A stretch of DNA of 45,968 bases from a virus, in IMG/VR virus record IMGVR_UViG_3300027852_000062, positions 1 to 45,968 of that record; one strand, given 5' to 3'. A program made the position numbers and the translations under genes. Shown here in pieces: positions 1 to 45,968 of this stretch. Position 1 is the first letter of the stretch. The number at the start of each line of letters is the position of its first letter. Under the pieces are notes generated by a model, which was not told the origin of the DNA, searched no databases, and saw only the letters and a program-made list of their open reading frames with translations.

Positions 1-136
1 CCTGTATATTCATACACCTGTATATCCATACAGTACCTGTACACCTATACAGTACAATAATAATTACGTATAAAGGATGAATAATCATGCGGCCTGTAGC
101 TCATTCCTTGACCAATGTGACCATAATTGTCACTTA
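1..136. repeat. Terminal direct repeat, left copy
   Basis: These 136 bases recur as the last 136 bases of the window. Positions 11-136 are identical (126 bp) and only base 10 differs (t here, c at 45842). This is what a linearised circular assembly gives, or a short direct terminal repeat of the T7 kind (T7's is about 160 bp). The sequence cannot tell these apart. The left part carries three of the 16-bp CTGT-N8-ACAG boxes (2-17, 18-33, 37-52) and the right end carries a 17-bp palindrome. Confidence 0.9.
117..133. promoter_or_regulatory. 17-bp palindromic operator-like site, copy 1
   Basis: GTGAC-cataatt-GTCAC is a perfect inverted repeat. An identical copy lies 41 bp downstream, about four helical turns away, so a protein bound to both would sit on the same DNA face. 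It lies upstream of the first early gene. It resembles a CRP site at first sight, but the half-site spacing is wrong for TGTGA-N6-TCACA. The binding protein is unknown. The copy at 45949-45965 belongs to the terminal repeat. Confidence 0.55.
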
Positions 137-157
137 TCGCCCTAGAATGTCATCTAT

Positions 158-174
158 GTGACCATAATTGTCAC
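158..174. promoter_or_regulatory. 17-bp palindromic operator-like site, copy 2
   Basis: This is a second exact copy of GTGAC-N7-GTCAC with the same internal bases and the same flanks (tat before, tta after). The identical spacer and flanks suggest a recently duplicated or strongly selected protein-binding site ahead of the early operon rather than a chance palindrome. Confidence 0.55.
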
Positions 175-251
175 TTAAGCAAGTATCATACCAAGTAGTG
201 CTAATACCTAGAATGCTAATAGAATCAATGACTTAGGGTTATTTATCAAAG

Positions 252-7047: not shown

Positions 7048-7515
7048 ATGAAACACTCAGTCTATTACCCCCAGTCGATAGGAGGTGGAAGATTTATAGT
7101 GAGTGAACTTCGTTCTTTCTTAGGGTTTAAATGGTGGAGGCCTGTCCCTGATCTGTACATAGATTATGATAGGTTATTACTGGAAGAAAAAAACCTCAAG
7201 TTACAGTTAAAACGTAAAGGTGAGGAGGTGAAGAAAGAGAAGGAAGGTATTGAAAAGTTTGTTCAATATTCTCTGGCTTCGCATCAAGGATACTCTCGTT
7301 CATTATCCCCTAACAAGCGGAAGATAATGAGGGTTGGAACCAGTGAGATTGACTACCAAGAACTCTCTTTCTTAGATGAGAAGTCTGAGAAGAAGAGTAA
7401 CCCAAGAGAGCGAGGCCCTCCGACAGTTAGTGTGCATCATCCTTCTGATAATATCCAAAGTGCTGGTCAGAAAGGCAACCAAGGTAACAATCAGAAGGGC
7501 GGGAACAAGCAGTAG
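7048..7515 (+). CDS. Early protein with disordered Gly/Asn/Gln tail
   Basis: A 155-residue protein with a purine-rich AAGGAAAAGAG site. The N-terminal 50 residues look folded (KWWRPVPDLYIDYDRLL), residues 50-75 form a Lys/Glu-rich helix (KGEEVKKEKEGIEKF), and the last 45 residues are low-complexity and polar (GQKGNQGNNQKGGNKQ). It has no membrane segment or catalytic motif and no recognised family. Confidence 0.7.
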   Translation: MKHSVYYPQSIGGGRFIVSELRSFLGFKWWRPVPDLYIDYDRLLLEEKNLKLQLKRKGEEVKKEKEGIEKFVQYSLASHQGYSRSLSPNKRKIMRVGTSEIDYQELSFLDEKSEKKSNPRERGPPTVSVHHPSDNIQSAGQKGNQGNNQKGGNKQ

Positions 7516-10190: not shown

Positions 10191-10219
10191 GATAGTGTAT
10201 TCTTAAACAGTACACTATC
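10191..10219 (+). other. Repeated intergenic hairpin, type 2, copy 2
   Basis: GATAGTGTA/TACACTATC is a perfect nine-bp stem with an 11-base loop, flanked by cttac and ttga like copy 1. The two differences in the stem are compatible with pairing (CA/TG becomes TA/TA). It lies just upstream of the next small membrane gene. A partial copy (cttacaatagtgtac) follows the hydrolase gene near 8730. Confidence 0.6.
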
Positions 10220-12679: not shown

Positions 12680-14407
12680 ATGAGTAAAATCATAGGTGAT
12701 ACATTCTGTCCTACTTGTAGATCTGAAGGTAGAGACATTACAGGAAACCACTTAATACTTTATGAAGATGGTGGTTCTTATTGTAACAGATGTGGATACA
12801 CCTCTATTAAGAATAAGACTATTCATTCAATTCCTAAGGTATCAAGTACTATGAGTACAGCTGTAAATGATGTAGAGAACTTCACCCTCTGTCCAATAGT
12901 AGACCTACTGGATAGAGGACTAACTCTATCTACTGCACAGAGGTATCAGGTTAGAAGCATAGTCAACCAGTCCAATGGTACTGACTATGAGGCTAGGCTC
13001 TTACCTCTGTCCAAAGATGGAAAGATAACAGGCTATAAGAAGAGGGATGTAGCAGTTAAATCTTTCTCCTGTATAGGAGATTGCAAAGATACAGAACTCT
13101 TTGGCCAATCAATAGTTCCACCTAATGGTAAAAAGATATTCATAACTGAAGGTGAGTACGATGCAATGTCTTTGTACCAAGTCCTAAAAGAATCCAGTTC
13201 TATCCATGACTGGGAACCCCCCGTACTATCTCTAAGCAAAGGTTCAGCTAGTGCAGCTGCTGAGATAACCAAAGCTTACGACTACCTAGATACATTCGAA
13301 CAAATCATATTCGTATTCGATCAAGATGAAGCAGGTAAGAAGGCTCTTGATGAAGCGTGTATGGTCCTACCTCATAAATCTTATACAACTAAACTAACTC
13401 TTAATGATCCAAATGAAATGCTAATGCAAGGCTTAGGCTCTGAGCTTAAGTGGGCTTGCATGAAGCACTTTACTCGTTACCAACCTGACAACATAGTCGA
13501 TGGTGCAGATACCTGGGAAGCATACAAAGATGCTAACTCAGCTACGTGCTACTCGTACCCTCCCTCTATGCCTGAGCTTAATGCTAAGACGTACGGTGTA
13601 CGCTTAGGTAGCATAGTAACTGTCACCTCAGGCAGTGGCTGTGGTAAGACTCAGTTCATGCGTGAACTTAAGTACCATTTTTTTAAAACTACTAAATTCA
13701 AAATAGCAGACATAGCACTCGAAGAAGGCCTAGGTGATACAGTATCAGGTATCATGTCTGTCCACCTCAACAAAAGATTGCATCTCCCTGATATAACTAT
13801 ACCTGAACAAGATGAAAGAGATGCACACTCCTACCTATTTGATAGTCATCGCTGGTCTTTCTATGACCACTTCGGCGGTATGGATGACTCTAACCTATTT
13901 AATAAGATAAGATATTTTGCAGCTACAGGACACAACCTAATCTTTCTAGATCATCTCTCTATTATTGTATCAGAATATGCAGCTGAAGGAAATGAAAGGG
14001 AACGAATAGATACTATCATGTCTAAGCTAGCTAAGCTGGCCAAAGAATTAGACATCTGTATCTTCTTAGTAGTACACCTTAGAAAGACTAGTACATATGG
14101 TTCTTCCTTTGAAGAAGGATTAGTACCTAGCTTAGATGATCTACGTGGTAGTGGTTCTCTTAAGCAGTTAAGCTGGGATGTCATTGCCCTCTCTAGGAAC
14201 CAGCAGCACTATGATAATTACTGTGCTAATACTTCACTTATAACTGTACTTAAGTGTAGGTTTACAGGGAGGACAGGACCTACAGATTACTTACATTTTG
14301 TAGAGAGTACAGGACGTATGGTTAATACAGATAAGCCAGAGAACTATGACAACTCAGATAAAGATGAGTCTAATAAATTTAATACTAGTAAAGCAAACAT
14401 AGGGTAA
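12680..14407 (+). CDS. DNA primase-helicase, T7 gp4 type
   Basis: A 575-residue replicative protein, close to T7 gp4 (566). In order: zinc-binding C10-x2-C13 and C35-x2-C38, a TOPRIM fold (TEGEYDAMS near residue 156 and VFDQDEAGKK near 212), and a RecA/DnaB-type helicase with Walker A SGSGCGKT (317-324) and Walker B LIFLDH (420-425). A conserved RGSGSLKQLSWDV segment lies near residue 494. It synthesises primers and unwinds the fork for the gp5-type polymerase downstream. A GGGAAGA site precedes the start. It opens the replication operon, which then runs with short gaps and overlaps to about 20.1 kb. Confidence 0.96.
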   Translation: MSKIIGDTFCPTCRSEGRDITGNHLILYEDGGSYCNRCGYTSIKNKTIHSIPKVSSTMSTAVNDVENFTLCPIVDLLDRGLTLSTAQRYQVRSIVNQSNGTDYEARLLPLSKDGKITGYKKRDVAVKSFSCIGDCKDTELFGQSIVPPNGKKIFITEGEYDAMSLYQVLKESSSIHDWEPPVLSLSKGSASAAAEITKAYDYLDTFEQIIFVFDQDEAGKKALDEACMVLPHKSYTTKLTLNDPNEMLMQGLGSELKWACMKHFTRYQPDNIVDGADTWEAYKDANSATCYSYPPSMPELNAKTYGVRLGSIVTVTSGSGCGKTQFMRELKYHFFKTTKFKIADIALEEGLGDTVSGIMSVHLNKRLHLPDITIPEQDERDAHSYLFDSHRWSFYDHFGGMDDSNLFNKIRYFAATGHNLIFLDHLSIIVSEYAAEGNERERIDTIMSKLAKLAKELDICIFLVVHLRKTSTYGSSFEEGLVPSLDDLRGSGSLKQLSWDVIALSRNQQHYDNYCANTSLITVLKCRFTGRTGPTDYLHFVESTGRMVNTDKPENYDNSDKDESNKFNTSKANIG

Positions 14408-14413
14408 AAGAAG

Positions 14414-14788
14414 ATGAGATACTATAGAGAATTAAATATAGACGAGAAGGTACAGTTGTTTAGGGACTGGCTAGAAGATGGTGAGGTTGAGTTTATGACT
14501 AACTTCTTCAGAGATTGGAAACTAACTAGCATTCCTTGCTGGAATAGAGATGCATGCTATAGGAAGAAAGAAGTATCATACCCTGCCTCTGTTGATTGGA
14601 GCCATGTGTCAAGTAAATATGACTATTTAATTTGTGATGAAGGTTACTTCGGAGGGTACGAAATGCGTTTGTGTTCTAACTCTACCTTTAAAAGCAGCTT
14701 ATATTCTATATCTACAAAACCATTTGCCTCTTTTAAAGAGGGTGAAGGTAAGCTTAAGTATGAAACGGTAAGTAGATATGACAGCTAA
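14414..14788 (+). CDS. Hypothetical protein in the replication operon
   Basis: A 124-residue protein, aromatic-rich with four scattered cysteines (FFRDWKLTSIPCWNRDACYRKK). No known domain can be recognised. It lies six bases after the primase-helicase stop and overlaps the next gene by 11 bases, so it is translated with the replication genes. Confidence 0.7.
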   Translation: MRYYRELNIDEKVQLFRDWLEDGEVEFMTNFFRDWKLTSIPCWNRDACYRKKEVSYPASVDWSHVSSKYDYLICDEGYFGGYEMRLCSNSTFKSSLYSISTKPFASFKEGEGKLKYETVSRYDS

Positions 14789-14978
14789 ACAAGAGCTACT
14801 TATCTTAAACTGTACTGATAGTCGTATGTGGTACTCGAACCTAGTAGGAGAAAGAGTACTCTTCATAAGAGATACAGGGTATGACTATCTAAGTAGAGAA
14901 CCAGCAGGGTATACTAACATTGTACTGTATAAAGATGCTGTATTGGTTGATATCTTAGAGGAGGATCAAGATGAATGA
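14778..14978 (+). CDS. Hypothetical small protein in the replication operon
   Basis: A 66-residue acidic protein beginning within the end of the previous gene and ending LEEDQDE. It looks like a small beta-rich fold (ERVLFIRDTGYDYL...YTNIVLYKDAVLVDI). The function is unknown. It overlaps the next start by eight bases. Confidence 0.65.
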   Translation: MTAKQELLILNCTDSRMWYSNLVGERVLFIRDTGYDYLSREPAGYTNIVLYKDAVLVDILEEDQDE

Positions 14979-15159
14979 GTATAAAGTCAAGTGTACCTAC
15001 TCAGACTCAGATATAAAATACTATACAGTCTATGCTGTTACACCTGAAGAAGCTAAGAGAAGAGTAGCTGAAGGTCTAATAGAGAATGAGTATGACCTAG
15101 ATTCAATAGACTTTATACTGTCTTGTCTTACTGCTGAAGAGGTTGATAGGTTTATATGA
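14971..15159 (+). CDS. Hypothetical small protein in the replication operon
   Basis: A 62-residue protein with GAGGAGG before its ATG. The pattern (YKVKCTYSDS...YYTVYAVTPEEAKRRVAEGL) resembles small phage proteins with a beta-hairpin followed by an AxxEAxxR helix. Similar ones appear again at 17.0 and 18.9 kb, suggesting a family of related accessory proteins. The stop overlaps the polymerase start (ATGA). Confidence 0.65.
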   Translation: MNEYKVKCTYSDSDIKYYTVYAVTPEEAKRRVAEGLIENEYDLDSIDFILSCLTAEEVDRFI

Positions 15160-17018
15160 GACTAGTCTTTGACATAGAAGCAGATGGACTCCTAGATGGA
15201 GCTACTACTATCTGGTGTATAGTGTGTAAAGATATAGATACAGGTGCTACTTACTCTACATTCAAAGATTACTTAGATAACCAAGATGGCATGTACCATA
15301 AGTCAGCATCAAGTATGAGTGACATACTGAGACTACTAACAGAAGCTAAGGAGATTATAGGGCACAACATAATAGGATACGATATACCTTTACTAGATAA
15401 GCTAATAGGATGGAAGCCGAGTAAAGGTACTAAGATAACAGACACTCTAGTAATGTCAAGACTGCTTAACCCTGATAGGTCATCACCTATAGGTATCAAA
15501 GGTGGACACAGTCTTGATGCATGGGGTAAAAGATTAGGGAAAAGGAAACCAAAGCATGAAGATTGGACTAAGTTTAGTAAAGAAATGTTGCACAGGTGTA
15601 CTGAAGACGTTGAGATTAACCACTTGGTACTTGATCAGCTTACCCTTGAGGCTAGCGATCATGATTGGACTAGTAGCCTTAAGCTTGAGCATGATGTTGC
15701 TAGTATTATTGCCAAGCAAGCTAGATCAGGAGTTTATTTTGACATCGGAGCAGCGACTACACTACTTACTGACCTCGACAATAAACTATCTAAGATCGAC
15801 GAAGCTCTACTCTTATCTCTCCCGAAAACTGTAGTAAGAGGTACTACTATAGCTAAGCCTTTCAATGTTACAGGCAAGCACAGCATGAGAGTACAGTCTT
15901 GGTATGAGGATGAAGGGTATGAAGTTGTAGCTGGTCCATTTAGTAAGGTAGGGTTTACAGAGTTCAATCTTAATAGTGATAAGAAGATTAAAGAGTTTCT
16001 ATTAGAAGAAGGATGGGTACCTACTGAATGGAACTATGTAAAGGACAAAGAACAAGCCACAGGGTACCGTAGGACGTCCCCTAAGCTCACTGAGGACTCG
16101 TTTGACTCTATACAAGGGGGTATGCCAGCCTCTATTAAAGAACGTCTCCTGATCAAGCACAGGCGCTCCTGCTTGAAGTCCTTAAAGAACGATAAGAAGG
16201 GCCTACTTAATAACATAAGACCTGATGGTACTATCCCTGCTGATGCTAACCCTTGTGGTACTAACACAGGTAGAATGACTCACATGACTGTAGTCAATAT
16301 ACCTAGAGCTGGTACTCTGTATGGCAAAGAGATGAGGTCTCTGTTCATACCTAGGCCAGGTAGAATATTTGTAGGGCATGATGCTAAAGGGATAGAGTTA
16401 CGTATGCTAGCTCACTACATAGATGACTACCTCTATACACAGGAGATACTGACTGGTGACATACATAACTATAATCAAGGACTCGCTGGACTACCGACTA
16501 GGGACGATGCTAAGACTTTCATCTATGCTTTTATATATGGTGCAGGGGATCAGAAGCTCGGATCTATCATTGGAGGAACAAAGAGAGACGGTACTGACAT
16601 ACGTAATAAGTTCCTTACAGCTAACCCAAGACTTGAGCAGCTTATTAACTCAACTAAAAGAGAGTCTGGAAAAGGATACTTACTCGGGTTAGACGGTAGA
16701 AAGGTATGGATGAGAAGAGGAGACGATGGTAGGATCATGAGGCATAAGGCTCTTAACACTAGGCTACAATCTGGTGGAGCTGTAGTCATGAAGAAGAGTA
16801 TAGTACTGCTAGACCAATGGGTAAGAGAGGAGAACCTTGACAGTATAAAAGTAATAGATATGCATGATGAAGGACAATACGATGTTGCACCTAAAGATGT
16901 AGAGAGACATAAGGAACTTGCTGAGAAGAGTATAGTCGAAGCTGGTAAGTATTACAATCTGAATATACCTTTAGCTGCTGATGTCAAGTCAGGGAGTAGT
17001 TGGTATGAGACACACTAG
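15156..17018 (+). CDS. DNA polymerase, family A, T7 gp5 type
   Basis: A 620-residue polymerase (T7 gp5 is 704). The N-terminal 3'-5' exonuclease begins with FDIEADGL (residues 5-12). The polymerase domain has motif A HDAKGIELRML (near 408), motif B TRDDAKTFIYAFIYGAG (near 447-463, almost the T7 sequence) and motif C MHDE (near 569). The O-helix residue equivalent to E. coli F762 is tyrosine, as in T7, which fits a virulent lifestyle. It acts with the primase-helicase at the fork. I see no thioredoxin gene; a host factor may serve. The start overlaps the previous stop. Confidence 0.97.
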   Translation: MRLVFDIEADGLLDGATTIWCIVCKDIDTGATYSTFKDYLDNQDGMYHKSASSMSDILRLLTEAKEIIGHNIIGYDIPLLDKLIGWKPSKGTKITDTLVMSRLLNPDRSSPIGIKGGHSLDAWGKRLGKRKPKHEDWTKFSKEMLHRCTEDVEINHLVLDQLTLEASDHDWTSSLKLEHDVASIIAKQARSGVYFDIGAATTLLTDLDNKLSKIDEALLLSLPKTVVRGTTIAKPFNVTGKHSMRVQSWYEDEGYEVVAGPFSKVGFTEFNLNSDKKIKEFLLEEGWVPTEWNYVKDKEQATGYRRTSPKLTEDSFDSIQGGMPASIKERLLIKHRRSCLKSLKNDKKGLLNNIRPDGTIPADANPCGTNTGRMTHMTVVNIPRAGTLYGKEMRSLFIPRPGRIFVGHDAKGIELRMLAHYIDDYLYTQEILTGDIHNYNQGLAGLPTRDDAKTFIYAFIYGAGDQKLGSIIGGTKRDGTDIRNKFLTANPRLEQLINSTKRESGKGYLLGLDGRKVWMRRGDDGRIMRHKALNTRLQSGGAVVMKKSIVLLDQWVREENLDSIKVIDMHDEGQYDVAPKDVERHKELAEKSIVEAGKYYNLNIPLAADVKSGSSWYETH

Positions 17019-24870: not shown

Positions 24871-25422
24871 TTAAACTGACTCTATAATTATATTGTTAGA
24901 ATCAGCACTACCTGATTCATCGTTGATTACTATTACTTTATCTTTGAACCTGTCATGTATGAGAGGGAGTGTTATAGTACATACCCCTGCATAGTTAACT
25001 CCAAAGATATTAAGTCCTGCTTGAAGCTCATTCTTATTAATTGTATAAGTTGAAGTAGTTATAGTAGTAACATACTTTACTGGTGATCCACTACCACCGC
25101 CGTACCCTTTGTGAGGTGAAGTTGCTACTTCTTTAGGCTTAGGGAGAGCAGCTACCTCAGCCCCTACAAGCTCCTCTACGAGGCCTTTAACTTCACCTAT
25201 AGTAACACTAGTCCCATCCTTACCACGCTCCCCAGGGAGGCCCTGAGAGCCTTGTAGGCCCCTTGTACCGTCTTTTCCTGGGGTAGGCCTAGGTACTAGC
25301 TTAAGAATCTCTTCAATAGAGGGTGCATCTCTGCCATCTCTACCGTGTAGGCCAGCTATGCCTTGAGCACCTTGCTTACCTCTCTTAGGTATGCGCTGTA
25401 TCTTACCTATAACCTTAGCCAA
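24871..25422 (-). CDS. Collagen-like tail/appendage protein
   Basis: A 183-residue protein with a TTG start and an AGAGGA site. Two blocks of Gly-x-y triplets (about residues 15-35 and 49-72; GKQGAQGIAGLHGRDGRD, GLQGSQGLPGERGKDG) would form a collagen-type triple helix. The C-terminal 60 residues are a beta domain (TYTINKNELQAGLNIFGVN...TITLP) common at the ends of phage fibres. It is probably a trimeric appendage. The start overlaps the preceding stop by eight bases. Confidence 0.8.
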   Translation of the reverse strand: MAKVIGKIQRIPKRGKQGAQGIAGLHGRDGRDAPSIEEILKLVPRPTPGKDGTRGLQGSQGLPGERGKDGTSVTIGEVKGLVEELVGAEVAALPKPKEVATSPHKGYGGGSGSPVKYVTTITTSTYTINKNELQAGLNIFGVNYAGVCTITLPLIHDRFKDKVIVINDESGSADSNNIIIESV

Positions 25423-35582: not shown

Positions 35583-35796
35583 TTTTAGCTTTCTTCTTAG
35601 ATAGGTTAGCTATGTAACTCTCAGCCCTAACCTTTAACATCTCTAAATTATTCCAAGGGTCTCTTAACTCTGAAGGTATCTCTCCACCAGTGCTATATTG
35701 AAGTTGGAACATGTTAGTCATTGTGTCTCTTACAATCTGTAACTCTTTACCAGCATCAGTAACACCTACTGTAAGTTTAAACTGTTGATCTTCCAT
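35575..35796 (-). CDS. Small protein between tail tubular A and B
   Basis: 73 residues (VGVTDAGKELQIVRDTMTNMFQLQYSTGGEIPSELRDPW...) with a Lys-rich end. It overlaps the end of tail tubular A by 20 bases and the start of tail tubular B by eight. Small proteins in this slot occur in SIO1-like podophages. Function is unknown; a virion assembly or tail component is likely. Confidence 0.68.
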   Translation of the reverse strand: MEDQQFKLTVGVTDAGKELQIVRDTMTNMFQLQYSTGGEIPSELRDPWNNLEMLKVRAESYIANLSKKKAKNA

Positions 35797-39088: not shown

Positions 39089-40850
39089 TACCTTGTCCGT
39101 CCACTATAGTATTGCTTTCTATATCTAGTTGATCTTGTGCAGTTTGGGCTAACCTTTGAGCTTGTAGCCTCTCAGATACTCTTATGTTAGGTTTAACTTC
39201 TAGTATCTTATCTGCACCTGAAACTTCTAACAAGGCTTGAGTCATCTCTACTGAACTCAAGTGTGATCTCATCTCTTCATCTAGGTTCTGGTTTACACTT
39301 GTAATTGTTTGAGCTAGTCTAGCTTGTTCAGCAAAGTGTCTTGCACCGATAGGTATAAGTCTTCCATTAGCTAGTAGATCTTCTTTAGTAATAGTTAAGA
39401 ACTGCTCTACACCTGTGTCATCATCTATGATCTTTATCTTATCAGTGATGTCTAGGTTTCTTCTAGCTACTTCTAATTCAGCATTAAGGATCTCTTCTAA
39501 GAACTCTTCAAACTGATTGATCTTATTCTGGAACATCCTACCTGATGCATTCTGTAACTGAGATACTTCAAAGGCTGTCTTCTCCCCTGGAGTTCTTATA
39601 CCCATAGCTTCTCTGGGTGCACCGCTGAATAGCTCCATCTGATCAGACTTAGTCTGTAATCTGAAGTCTGCATTCAAGAAGGAAAGGTCAGGTATTAAGT
39701 TAGTTACAGTACCTTGGCCATCTGGTATCTCGTACTCTACTTGTCCATTGTCTCCATAGTGAGTTGTGATATCTCCTATCAGTACTCTGTCTGGAGTTAA
39801 GACTTGATCTAGTCCATCAGCTACTGCATTCTCTACATGGTTGATGTAGTACTGCATACCGATAAGGTTGTCTAGTGGACCCATAGCCATAAGGTTGTCA
39901 GGTCTTAATCTCCAACCACTGTGGTAGATGTGAGGTCTTCCAGTCCAAGTATTCAAAGGTTCAGACCTTACAACCCAAGTCTTGTCTATTACAGTTATAA
40001 CGTGATTCTTTAAGAACTTGTTATTAACTGTATCGTAGATGTCTCCATAGAACTCTAGTACTTCTACGAAGCCTGAGTTGAAATAATCCATAGGAGTGTT
40101 GAACCCATCAAACTGTAGCTGAGAGATCTTATCAAAGTCAGCTGGGTCTATCTGGTTCAACTTGCTTCTAAGCTCAGTTACTTGTTGAAGTACTTCGCTT
40201 GAGTAGCCTAACTCTGGTCGTTCTTCTGAGTCTCTTGCTAACTCACCTAGAGTCTTAAGAGACCTTACAATCTTAGGAGCCTCTGCAAAGGAGGTTCCCA
40301 TCACATTGAATACAATATCATAAGGGCTGATTCTATTGACCTTTGGGCCTACATACCCTAGAGTAGTCTCCCCTGTGATAGGGTCTGTGTGCTGTTCTCT
40401 TATGTAGTCAACTGATGCGAAGCAGTTACCATATAGAGTCCAGTCACTTATAAGCTTAGCAACTGTATTCCTAAACTTAAGTAATCTATTCTTAGTCCTA
40501 AGGTAGCTCTCTACTGCGTCTCTCTTTACCTTAAGAGTACTATCTCTGTCTTCTCCTACGAACTCAAACCACTTGTCATTAGGAATAGCTGACATCAAGT
40601 AGTTACTATCTAAGTTATCTTTTACAAGAGTTAAGATAGGGATATGTGTACTGTGGCTGTGGTTGTTCTCAGAGTTAGTAGTTTCTTTTGTAGATGTAGC
40701 ATATACAAAGTTCACAGTCTCTTTAACTCTAGCTTCCCAGCTATTACGACCCATCTTCCATTGACTCCACTTATTAGCTATCTCTGCAGCTAAGGAGCTT
40801 GGAGCTTGGAATATATCATGTATGTCTATACTGTTTGCAGCATTGCTCAT
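39066..40850 (-). CDS. Portal (head-tail connector) protein, T7 gp8 type
   Basis: 594 residues (T7 gp8 is 536). Family features include VDYIREQHTDPITGETTLGYVGPKVNRISPYDIVFN, the GMRTPGEKTAFEV-like segment here as GIRTPGEKTAFEVSQLQNASGRMF, and a helical Gln/Asn-rich C-terminus. It forms the dodecameric ring through which DNA enters and leaves and binds the terminase. The start overlaps the terminase stop (ATGA). Confidence 0.93.
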   Translation of the reverse strand: MSNAANSIDIHDIFQAPSSLAAEIANKWSQWKMGRNSWEARVKETVNFVYATSTKETTNSENNHSHSTHIPILTLVKDNLDSNYLMSAIPNDKWFEFVGEDRDSTLKVKRDAVESYLRTKNRLLKFRNTVAKLISDWTLYGNCFASVDYIREQHTDPITGETTLGYVGPKVNRISPYDIVFNVMGTSFAEAPKIVRSLKTLGELARDSEERPELGYSSEVLQQVTELRSKLNQIDPADFDKISQLQFDGFNTPMDYFNSGFVEVLEFYGDIYDTVNNKFLKNHVITVIDKTWVVRSEPLNTWTGRPHIYHSGWRLRPDNLMAMGPLDNLIGMQYYINHVENAVADGLDQVLTPDRVLIGDITTHYGDNGQVEYEIPDGQGTVTNLIPDLSFLNADFRLQTKSDQMELFSGAPREAMGIRTPGEKTAFEVSQLQNASGRMFQNKINQFEEFLEEILNAELEVARRNLDITDKIKIIDDDTGVEQFLTITKEDLLANGRLIPIGARHFAEQARLAQTITSVNQNLDEEMRSHLSSVEMTQALLEVSGADKILEVKPNIRVSERLQAQRLAQTAQDQLDIESNTIVDGQGNVDQLSV

Positions 40851-42427
40851 CTTGTTACTCTACGTCCACCAAATCTTGTGTGTATGACTACGTTGCTTTT
40901 GCCTCTAGTCTTCCCATCGTGCTTAACACCTGGAGCTTTACATATCTCTATGCAGGAGCATAGTGCATCTTCGAGGTCATCGTGTCTAGGTCTTTCTAGT
41001 ATAATCTCTTCTTCTAGCTCAGGAGTAAGGCCACCTTTAAAATGGAATATACCTTGCTGTCTGTACCTAGGCTCTACTATAGCTGCATGACGTTCTCTTT
41101 TTGTAGAGTCATGGCTAGTTGTAGCTTTAGCATCGATAGCTAGCACTTGTCCATTAATCCGTATAAGCCTTTCTACTTCTTGCTTAACAAGTTTACCACC
41201 AGCGTTAGTCTCTATCCTCATCTTCCTGAAGCTCCAGTAGTGAGCTAATGCTATGATCCTGTCATAGTATACTTGGAAGTCAGAAGTCTTAAACCTGTCT
41301 ATATCTAGTACGTAGATGTATCCATCTGAGTCTACGCCTATTACTACTATAGCTGTGTAATCTGAAGTATTGTTAATGGTCCAAGCTACGTCCATTGCAG
41401 CGTAGACGTTTAACTGTTTACCGTCGTAGTACCATCTACCTGCTTCTTCTTGCAAGTTCTTCTTTTCATAGTACTGAAACCTAGACCTATCGAGTCTATG
41501 GCTGTTCGGGTCATTCGGGTCATTGTAGTATTGGGCGTAGAACTGTTCCATCTGTCCCGTAGAATCATACTGTGCGCGTATACTTGATAGTATATTCCTA
41601 TCAAATCCATACCACTCTCCTGTGTTTGAGCATATAGTCCTAGGCCATAGGTACTCGCCTGTCATGTCCCCTATGTTCTCTACCTTCTCTTCAAAGATAT
41701 CCCATAGCTTTTCTTTACCTATGTAAGACCCTTCTTCATCCCATATAGTTTTAGATGCTTCTTGTAGAGAAGAGTATAAATCTTTAGGATGGTATCTAGT
41801 ACCTACAGCTTTAGTTACTGCACCTGGGTTCTTGATAGATGCGAATTGAGATACTGACTGCTGTACTTCTCTTCTGCCTACTTCACTGTATGCGTATCTT
41901 GGAACTACTACGTCATCAAGTACTAAGTGAGAGCAGTGTAACCCTATAGCGTTTGACTTTACAGTCTTAATTATAATACTGTTGTCTCTTATGCCTCTCT
42001 TCTTACGCTCAGGGTGGTCTAGGTTTATAGACCAGCTAGTCCATTTATCCCTCTTACCTTCAGATGGAGTTATCATCTCAGGCCATAATAGCTGGTACTC
42101 ATCGCTGGTAAGCATGTTCTTAATGGCGTACATTTGAGCTGATGCTAAATCTTCTCCAGCTGATAAGTACACTACCGTTGACCAAGGCTTTCTAGTAAGC
42201 TCCCATATAACCCAGACCCCTATACAGTGAGACTTAAGGTGTCCCCTAGGGAGTAGAAGAAGCTGATGATCTTTACAGTCAGGCTGTGTCAACCAACTAA
42301 ACACCTTCTCATGTATCTCTCCATACACGTAGTGAGGATTGATATACTTAGCAAACTCAAACAAGTTGTTCTCACAGTCTTGTCTTAGCTCCATGAGCTG
42401 ATCTAATGTAGTTTGCTTAACCTTCAT
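40847..42427 (-). CDS. terL: Terminase large subunit
   Basis: 526 residues (T7 gp19 is 586). The N-terminal ATPase has the deviant Walker A LPRGHLKS (about 59-66), as in T7-like terminases, and a Walker B HLVLDDVVV (near 172). The C-terminal nuclease shows AAMDVAWTINNTSDYTAIVVIGVD (near 343) with the first catalytic aspartate, and a late HDDLEDALCSCIE segment with further acidic residues. It packages the genome into proheads together with the small subunit. The start overlaps the holin-like gene by 11 bases. Confidence 0.95.
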   Translation of the reverse strand: MKVKQTTLDQLMELRQDCENNLFEFAKYINPHYVYGEIHEKVFSWLTQPDCKDHQLLLLPRGHLKSHCIGVWVIWELTRKPWSTVVYLSAGEDLASAQMYAIKNMLTSDEYQLLWPEMITPSEGKRDKWTSWSINLDHPERKKRGIRDNSIIIKTVKSNAIGLHCSHLVLDDVVVPRYAYSEVGRREVQQSVSQFASIKNPGAVTKAVGTRYHPKDLYSSLQEASKTIWDEEGSYIGKEKLWDIFEEKVENIGDMTGEYLWPRTICSNTGEWYGFDRNILSSIRAQYDSTGQMEQFYAQYYNDPNDPNSHRLDRSRFQYYEKKNLQEEAGRWYYDGKQLNVYAAMDVAWTINNTSDYTAIVVIGVDSDGYIYVLDIDRFKTSDFQVYYDRIIALAHYWSFRKMRIETNAGGKLVKQEVERLIRINGQVLAIDAKATTSHDSTKRERHAAIVEPRYRQQGIFHFKGGLTPELEEEIILERPRHDDLEDALCSCIEICKAPGVKHDGKTRGKSNVVIHTRFGGRRVTR

Positions 42428-45176: not shown

Positions 45177-45545
45177 TTATATCTTCTTTCAATGTATAAT
45201 TATATCTATATATTTTATCTGTGAATAACAGATACACTACAATGCATTTTCGTTACCTTCCCCTCTAATCTGAGAAAGATCTTTAGAAGTAGTAGTCTTA
45301 GGAGGATTGATCTAGTATTACAATGGAAGTAGTAGGATTTAGTCTCGTTCTTACTAGGCTTCCTAATTAGTTTATATATTAGACACTAGTAATTCCATTA
45401 AGTTCAATAATAATTCAATTTATTTTATATTTATTTAATAACCTAGATATTTTTATAGGAACTATAATTATATAAGATATTTTTTAGGTGTACCCTAGAA
45501 TAGAAGAGAACCCCCCGGTAGGCCCCCCTATGGCCTTTTGCCATC
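45177..45545. other. AT-rich gap at the head of the leftward arm
   Basis: This 370-base stretch separates the leftward operon from the box array and carries no gene. It is very AT-rich near 45360-45490, as expected for a melting region, and holds a G-run pair on the - strand (45511-45528: GGGGGG-CCTACC-GGGGGG). On the - strand TTGAAC near 45400 could belong to a leftward promoter, but no good -10 at the right distance is evident. Confidence 0.4.
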
Positions 45546-45884
45546 ATGTATATACAAACAGTACTATATGTATGTACAGTGTATAAACGTACAGTGTATG
45601 CATGTACAGTGTATAGATAACCAGTAACTGTATGTATGATCAGTGTATGTATGTACAGCAACTATACCTATATACACCACTGTATATCTATACAATGTAT
45701 AACCATACAGCATGGCTATTTGACACTACCTATAAACAGCTACTGTATACTTATACACTGTATATTTGTACAGCAACTGTATATACAATCACTGTGTATC
45801 CGTACAGTATATGTATATCTATACAGTATACACCTGTATATCCATACACCTGTATATCCATACAGTACCTGTACACCTATACAG
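45546..45884. repeat. Array of about 18 LexA/SOS-box-like 16-bp palindromes
   Basis: Tandem copies of CTGT-N8-ACAG, with the inner eight bases mostly alternating A/T, as in the gamma/beta-proteobacterial LexA consensus. Four are exact to CTGT...ACAG (45758, 45792, 45850, 45869). Most others miss one terminal base. Starts include 45546, 45564, 45579, 45594, 45609, 45628, 45643, 45662, 45680, 45695, 45743, 45758, 45777, 45792, 45811, 45834, 45850 and 45869, so neighbours either share one base (15-bp pitch) or are 3-4 bases apart (18-19-bp pitch). Boxes at 2-17, 18-33 and 37-52 repeat the last three. Candidate LexA operator/decoy cluster, or iterons for an unknown protein. Confidence 0.75.
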
Positions 45885-45968
45885 TACAATAATAATTACG
45901 TATAAAGGATGAATAATCATGCGGCCTGTAGCTCATTCCTTGACCAATGTGACCATAATTGTCACTTA
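45833..45968. repeat. Terminal direct repeat, right copy
   Basis: This matches the first 136 bases of the window except at base 45842. It carries the last boxes of the palindrome array and one of the GTGAC-N7-GTCAC operator sites (45949-45965), so joining the ends yields one continuous control region between the divergent arms. Confidence 0.9.

Follow-up and report, generated by a model that had tools for sequence, protein, structure and literature searches.

A tandem array of 18 LexA-operator-like dyads lies in the divergent control gap of a Zobellviridae-like phage

The window, by which we mean the whole stretch of DNA analyzed, is a virus record of 45,968 bases whose genes form two divergent arms. 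The early arm consists of rightward genes, from 307 to about 20,100, and encodes a primase/helicase, a family A DNA polymerase, an exonuclease, and a T7-type endonuclease I. The late arm consists of leftward genes, from 45,176 to about 20,180, and encodes the large terminase subunit (TerL), portal, capsid, and tail proteins. We also noted a leftward ORF beside the tail genes (24871-25422) that encodes collagen-like G-x-y repeats and then a nonrepeat C-terminal part. Positions 1-136 differ from positions 45833-45968 at a single base, and another assembled contig (L003/L023) crosses the circular joint of the window. Because of this 136-base end repeat and the contig that reads across the joint, we concluded that the map is circular or terminally redundant. 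An array of LexA-operator-like boxes lies in the gap that separates the two arms, as the first-pass annotation of this DNA had placed it, and the second contig carries the same array, identical base for base.

The nearest named phage is GX1, a member of the Zobellviridae, with 48% identity for TerL and 43% for the polymerase. It is followed by ICP2, CVT22, SIO1-like, and MEP401-like phages, at 42 to 45% for TerL or portal. The features of the Zobellviridae are present, namely, terminase, portal, capsid, tail, primase, and polymerase matches and the divergent arm layout. Judged by these protein matches rather than by a formal phylogeny, the phage is a new Zobellviridae-like podophage. The hosts of its named relatives are gamma-, beta-, and alphaproteobacteria.

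The annotation had reported no visible repressor gene. Consistently with this, domain searches of the window proteins gave no match to LexA_DNA_bind, S24 peptidase, or tyrosine integrase, and we rejected a phage-encoded LexA or S24 repressor as the reader of the boxes. No DNA-binding regulator was identified among the phage proteins. The second early ORF gave a hint of HTH_AraC that is below threshold (E 0.056), and a search of nine other phage records, the majority bearing LexA-type boxes, found no homologue of its product; this search had no positive control. Thus, neither the integrase nor the repressor or LexA partner that marks the LexA-regulated temperate type (GIL01/186) was found, and other routes to lysogeny are possible.

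Table 1. Coordinates of the features discussed. Positions are those of the window unless a record handle precedes them.
Feature	Position	Strand	Remarks
Array of 18 LexA-operator-like dyads (16-mers)	45544..45886	.	From matrix scores and intervals
Exact box CTGTATATTTGTACAG	45758..45773	.	20-mer scores 21.2 bits
Strongest box CTGTATATCCATACAG	45850..45865	.	20-mer scores 22.6 bits; E. coli recA 22.3 and sulA 21.1, leave-one-out
Last box CTGTACACCTATACAG	45869..45884	.	Exact CTGT-N8-ACAG
C/G-tract block CCCCCCGGTAGGCCCCCC	45510..45531	.	Left edge of array
Two identical 22-bp repeats ATGTGACCATAATTGTCACTTA	115-136 and 156-177 (span 115..177)	.	GTGAC-N7-GTCAC dyad
First two early ORFs, 72 and 94 aa	307..835	+	Second ORF is 551-835
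Primase/helicase	12680-14407	+	Early arm; replication module 12680..17018
Family A DNA polymerase	15156-17018	+	Early arm; replication module 12680..17018
Large terminase subunit, Zobellviridae-like	40847..42427	-	48% GX1, 45% ICP2
First late-arm gene, 631 aa	43281..45176	-	No family match
CRP sites in other phages	L012:44161, 44432, 44480; L014:48179, 48395, 48443; L009:26892		Exact or near-exact
Tandem LexA-type boxes in other viruses	L016:7137-7257; L036:5613-5682, 7441-7474; L082:4793-4880; L095:2091-2154		15- to 18-bp or mixed pitch

The array had been described as about 18 dyads spanning 45546-45884, each a 16-bp CTGT-N8-ACAG unit, at a strict pitch of 15 or 19 bp. We found that the span and the number both hold. 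The 18 dyads start at 45546, 45564, 45579, 45594, 45609, 45628, 45643, 45662, 45680, 45695, 45743, 45758, 45777, 45792, 45811, 45834, 45850, and 45869. The last two recur as boxes at 18 and 37, because positions 1-136 duplicate the right end. The pitch is looser than described: the intervals are, in order, 18, 15, 15, 15, 19, 15, 19, 18, 15, 48, 15, 19, 15, 19, 23, 16, and 19 bp, so that 12 of the 17 agree (seven of 15 bp and five of 19 bp) and those of 18, 18, 48, 23, and 16 bp do not. Similarly, all 18 dyads have the architecture of the unit, but only four match it exactly (45758, 45792, 45850, and 45869), and the others have at least one mismatch. Base sharing between some boxes was confirmed. 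Neighboring boxes at the 15-bp pitch overlap by a single base, which closes one box and opens the next, and this changes CTGT to GTGT in that half of several boxes. The spacing of the half-sites is constant: the array contains 11 copies of TGTA-N6-TACA, and no other exact spacing occurs more than 4 times. We considered the junction between boxes, TACAGTACTGTA, as the center of symmetry and rejected it, since the junction varies with the pitch (15, 16, 18, 19, or 23 bp) and the N6 center does not.

Scoring against LexA weight matrices had been proposed as a check on the boxes. We used a 20-bp-wide matrix built from 20 E. coli operators, of which 8 were confirmed in the MG1655 sequence (recA, lexA [two sites], recN [three sites], umuDC, and sulA) and the remaining 12 are as we presume them to be. 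Known E. coli sites scored 14.3 to 25.9 bits leave-one-out, except polB at 5.6. We found 17 array sites at 11.5 to 22.6 bits, 16 of them at 13 bits or more and 12 at 15 bits or more, on this E. coli matrix, from which the LexA consensus of the phage's own host may differ. The matrix built from the eight confirmed sites alone placed all 17 at 12 bits or more. At a threshold of 11 bits, there were 17 matches in 350 bp, whereas 500 dinucleotide shuffles of this stretch averaged 0.36 and never exceeded 3; the shuffle means at thresholds of 11, 13, and 15 bits were 0.36, 0.20, and 0.12. The other 45 kb of the window held 8, 4, and 2 matches at these thresholds, and column-permuted LexA matrices gave an average of 0.07 matches. 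On the basis of the shuffles and permuted matrices, we rejected chance in A/T-rich DNA. Away from the array, we noted lone LexA-like sites at 10193-10212 (16.7 bits), between two early ORFs, and at 35767-35786 (15.8 bits), which may be chance matches in 45 kb.

The likeness to LexA operators goes beyond the outer motif. The array correlated with the E. coli LexA frequency matrix at 0.913, flank and inner positions included, and the two share preferences for A at position -1, T at 6, A/G at 7, and T at 8. The outer C/G at position 1 had a frequency of 0.64 in the array, versus 0.92 in E. coli LexA sites, and, unlike in those sites, the TGTA..TACA core is conserved more than the outer C/G. The weaker outer C/G is partly due to the base shared by boxes at the 15-bp pitch, and several boxes may therefore bind LexA poorly. 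We rejected a Lux box, which has the same CTGT-N8-ACAG core, since the flanks are mostly A/T, as in the LexA type, and not C/G; there was no LuxR-like protein among the proteins scanned.

Overlapping and tandem boxes of this kind occur in bacteria. Two overlapping LexA sites are established in most group A colicin promoters (PMC4675545). We found the colicin double box TACTGTATATAAAACCAGTGGTTATATGTACAGTA, with its two boxes exactly 15 bp apart, in 729 plasmid records, 372 of them at 99% identity or more. The second colicin box, CAGTGGTTATATGTACAGTA, scores 15.2 bits and starts with CAGTG, as do the overlapped boxes of the array. In E. coli, the box pitches are 22 and 18 bp at recN and 21 bp at lexA. 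A search of 84,980 species genomes for pairs of CTGTA-N6-TACAG boxes no more than 8 bp apart yielded 104 stretches, mostly from beta- and gammaproteobacteria by record title. In 18 of the 104, a LexA N-terminal motif (PPTRAEI-like) lies 77 to 129 bp away, in the orientation that puts the pair, with a pitch of 16 to 24 bp, just upstream of lexA. The tandem motif is thus the lexA autoregulatory operator in those groups.

We also scanned 2.9 million viral contigs for CTGTA-N6-TACAG pairs with a gap of up to 12. This gave 69 stretches, whereas two control dyads built in the same way gave 13 and 7. The array of the window is the densest by far, with 14 sites in 400 bp by the strict count. Other clusters had up to 8 boxes (L016), 5 plus 2 (L036), 5 (L082/L093/L075), or 4 (L095/L092 and L043/L050/L061). 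A box pair in L072 lies in a gap with leftward terminase genes on one side and rightward early genes on the other, and the array of L082 lies upstream of a leftward terminase. We found no LexA_DNA_bind or Peptidase_S24 domain in 12 other box-bearing records and no tyrosine integrase in the 10 tested, although several of these records are fragments. The Klebsiella phage Pylas (Schitoviridae) has a LexA-like box pair at a 15-bp pitch (L099:681-715) inside its 769-bp terminal repeat.

Comparison with related phages was a further check that had been proposed. One close relative, contig L005, has a TerL identity of 73%. Among the 80 best terminase relatives, many of whose contigs are too short to reach the gap, we found the array only in L043, a sister-group relative (group L043/L050; TerL, 51%), and, simple repeats aside, no other dyad array of similar strength. 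L043 has four boxes of 20 to 24 bits, one of which, TACTGTATGGATGTACAGTA, matches the E. coli sulA operator at all 20 positions. In the gaps of named Zobellviridae, a single strong site (24.9 bits) occurs in GX1, one site in Klyazma, and one weak site in T5S1b. CVT22, a Citrobacter phage and the nearest box-bearing relative in culture, has two sites plus degenerate ones. ICP2, 172P1, TC6, Pecta, CW02, P12053L (an alphaproteobacterial member), and MEP401 (a betaproteobacterial member) have no LexA-type sites in the gap. Since most Zobellviridae, Vibrio and Pseudomonas ones included, have no array, it is dispensable for the family, and this patchy distribution argues against a conserved origin. 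We rejected a family-wide origin because most of the approximately 80 terminase relatives, many with contigs too short for the gap, have no dyad array.

The control gap holds other elements as well. G-tract blocks comparable to the C/G-tract block of the window are found in the same gap of CVT22, 172P1, 1.208, GX1, Pecta, and T5S1b, and we noted runs of at least six G (or C), often paired, by the control region in the divergent gaps of L011, L012, L014, L008, L013, and L102/L106. These recurring runs in Zobellviridae gaps are perhaps a packaging, terminus, or quadruplex element. The two ATGTGACCATAATTGTCACTTA repeats come after the array and before the first early gene, where they form a second operator-like element, distinct from the LexA-type boxes, and another element, TGTATGCATGTACA, is common to the window and CVT22. 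A scan for sigma-70 promoters found no excess inside or beside the array. By eye, we read one weak candidate rightward promoter (9/12), with TATACA at 45878-45883, in the right half of the last box, as the -35 element and TATAAA at 45901-45906. Exact CRP sites (TGTGA-N6-TCACA) number two in the Vibrio phage 172P1 and three in the Vibrio phage 1.208; all of them lie in or beside the gap, with no others in either genome, and ICP2 has a CRP site with one mismatch in or beside its divergent gap. In the L043/L050 group, two parS-like sites, TGTTCCACGTGAAACA, lie between LexA box pairs (L043:152-167 and 202-217; L050:10317 and 10367). There was no ParB domain in the L043 and L050 records, and these sites are possibly bound by host ParB. 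The CRP and parS-like sites in the same gap fit a control region that is wired to host global regulators.

Taken together, these data suggest that host LexA very probably binds the array. The boxes agree with LexA operators in their core and inner bases, in their flanks, and in the way that they overlap, and the identity claimed in the first-pass annotation is supported by matrix scores, profile, colicin-type overlap, pairs upstream of lexA, and the sulA copy in the sister phage. The LexA consensus of the host is inferred from the boxes themselves. On the role of the array, we lean toward a model in which the boxes are operators for host LexA of the beta- or gammaproteobacterial type that control the divergent promoters, with LexA titrated as the genome copy number rises. 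If host LexA does bind, the array probably contributes to LexA-dependent regulation of phage promoters, titration setting the timing, and is unlikely to be purely a sponge. The lack of a sigma-70 promoter excess counts against a direct promoter switch.

According to this operator model, host LexA would coat the control region on entry and hold down the promoters at the edges of the array. An E. coli cell contains roughly a thousand LexA molecules. With about 17 usable sites on each genome, replication would titrate this limited pool, and some tens of genome copies would outnumber the cell's LexA dimers. Cleavage of LexA by RecA in a phage-triggered SOS response would remove the remainder, in the same direction as titration. 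Phage promoters would then open in a copy-number-dependent way, and host SOS genes would rise as a by-product or a benefit. We tentatively propose, as something less likely than the operator model itself, that in a repressorless virulent phage, the array could be a copy-number counter and sponge in one. LexA would restrain the control region until the sites outnumber it, and then the next phage phase would fire and host SOS would switch on without DNA damage.

The main rival is a pure decoy, in which the array strips LexA from host promoters as genomes multiply and so induces SOS (recombination, repair, nucleotide supply, and a division block), with no phage promoter gated. About 40 genome copies carry some 680 sites, which is comparable with the cell's LexA dimers. 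The decoy would also account for the absence of a promoter excess and of a phage repressor to feed, and the 17 to 18 sites are far above what repression needs, E. coli operators having one to three LexA boxes (PMC8072944). We nevertheless consider this quite unlikely as the whole explanation. Related and unrelated phages, some with comparable placement, have only two to eight boxes, too few to titrate LexA early in infection; placement in the promoter gap, and not elsewhere, points to regulation; and overlapped boxes cannot all have high affinity.

Less likely still is that a phage-encoded regulator or origin-binding protein reads the TGTAT-N4-ATACA core, so that the likeness to LexA is convergence and the array is the phage's own origin or operator. 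The conservation of TGTA..TACA above the outer C/G, which is unlike that of E. coli LexA sites, would fit such a protein, as would the resemblance of a regular array in a divergent gap to iterons, the helix-turn-helix hint in the 551-835 protein, and the presence of TGTATGCATGTACA in CVT22. Against it, the match reaches the inner and flanking preferences of LexA (r, 0.91) and the colicin overlap geometry, the 551-835 protein has no relative in the nine other phage records searched (with no positive control), the sister phage has an exact sulA operator, and nearly all relatives with the same packaging genes lack the array, unlike what is expected of a family origin. For this last reason, an origin appears to be the least supported of the three roles that had been proposed, titration and a switch being the others. 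It is very improbable that the dyads are not duplex operators but instead form hairpins once the DNA is single stranded or transcribed into RNA (for example, as promoters for an N4-type virion RNA polymerase or as signals for packaging or replication). The strand does fold better than its shuffles (z, -2.5), as any array of palindromes must, and the Pylas box pair lies inside a terminal repeat. However, the stems are 4 to 6 bp and A/T rich around an open N4-N6 center, the minimum free energy structure joins distant units and not each unit with itself, there is no Rfam match, and hairpins would leave the base conservation of center and flanks unexplained.

The 18-box array, together with the smaller clusters in several unrelated phages in which neither a repressor nor an integrase was found, suggests that phages with an apparently lytic lifestyle have repeatedly connected their control regions to global regulators of the host. 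The regulators tapped would be LexA in the window phage and CRP and perhaps ParB in its relatives. If this is true, lytic infection would be tuned by how far the SOS response of the cell is induced, and the phage could in turn set off SOS simply by replicating and titrating LexA. Our search of the open literature, which leaves out most subscription journals, turned up neither an earlier array of this kind nor a phage that titrates LexA.

Known systems share parts of this arrangement. The other Zobellviridae (ICP2, CVT22, Klyazma, PA11, SIO1, and MEP401) have homologues of the terminase, portal, capsid, primase/helicase, and polymerase and the same divergent arms and control gap, but the named members tested have zero to two LexA-like gap sites, and no window protein exceeds 48% identity with theirs. 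Colicin operons of the cea type share the 15-bp pitch, the shared G, and a weak second box (CAGTG...TACAG) with a similar score, but they have two boxes at a plasmid bacteriocin promoter, whereas the phage has 18 in a control region. The lexA and recN promoters also have tandem boxes, at 16 to 24 bp for lexA in beta- and gammaproteobacteria and 18/22 bp for E. coli recN, but there a known promoter carries two or three boxes, whereas the phage has 18 with no mapped promoter. Most of the phage LexA boxes known are in temperate phages, which have one to four of them. In coliphage 186 (tum) and CTXphi, which are temperate and have their own repressors, host LexA represses a phage promoter through one or two boxes. 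The Bacillus phage GIL01 is alike in that its control regions are wired to host LexA through several boxes (PMC6182141, PMC4551915), but it is temperate, infects Bacillus thuringiensis, and has dinBoxes 1, 1b, 2, and 3 plus gp7, a partner that binds LexA. In the window phage, we found no integrase, and the consensus of its boxes is of the proteobacterial type.
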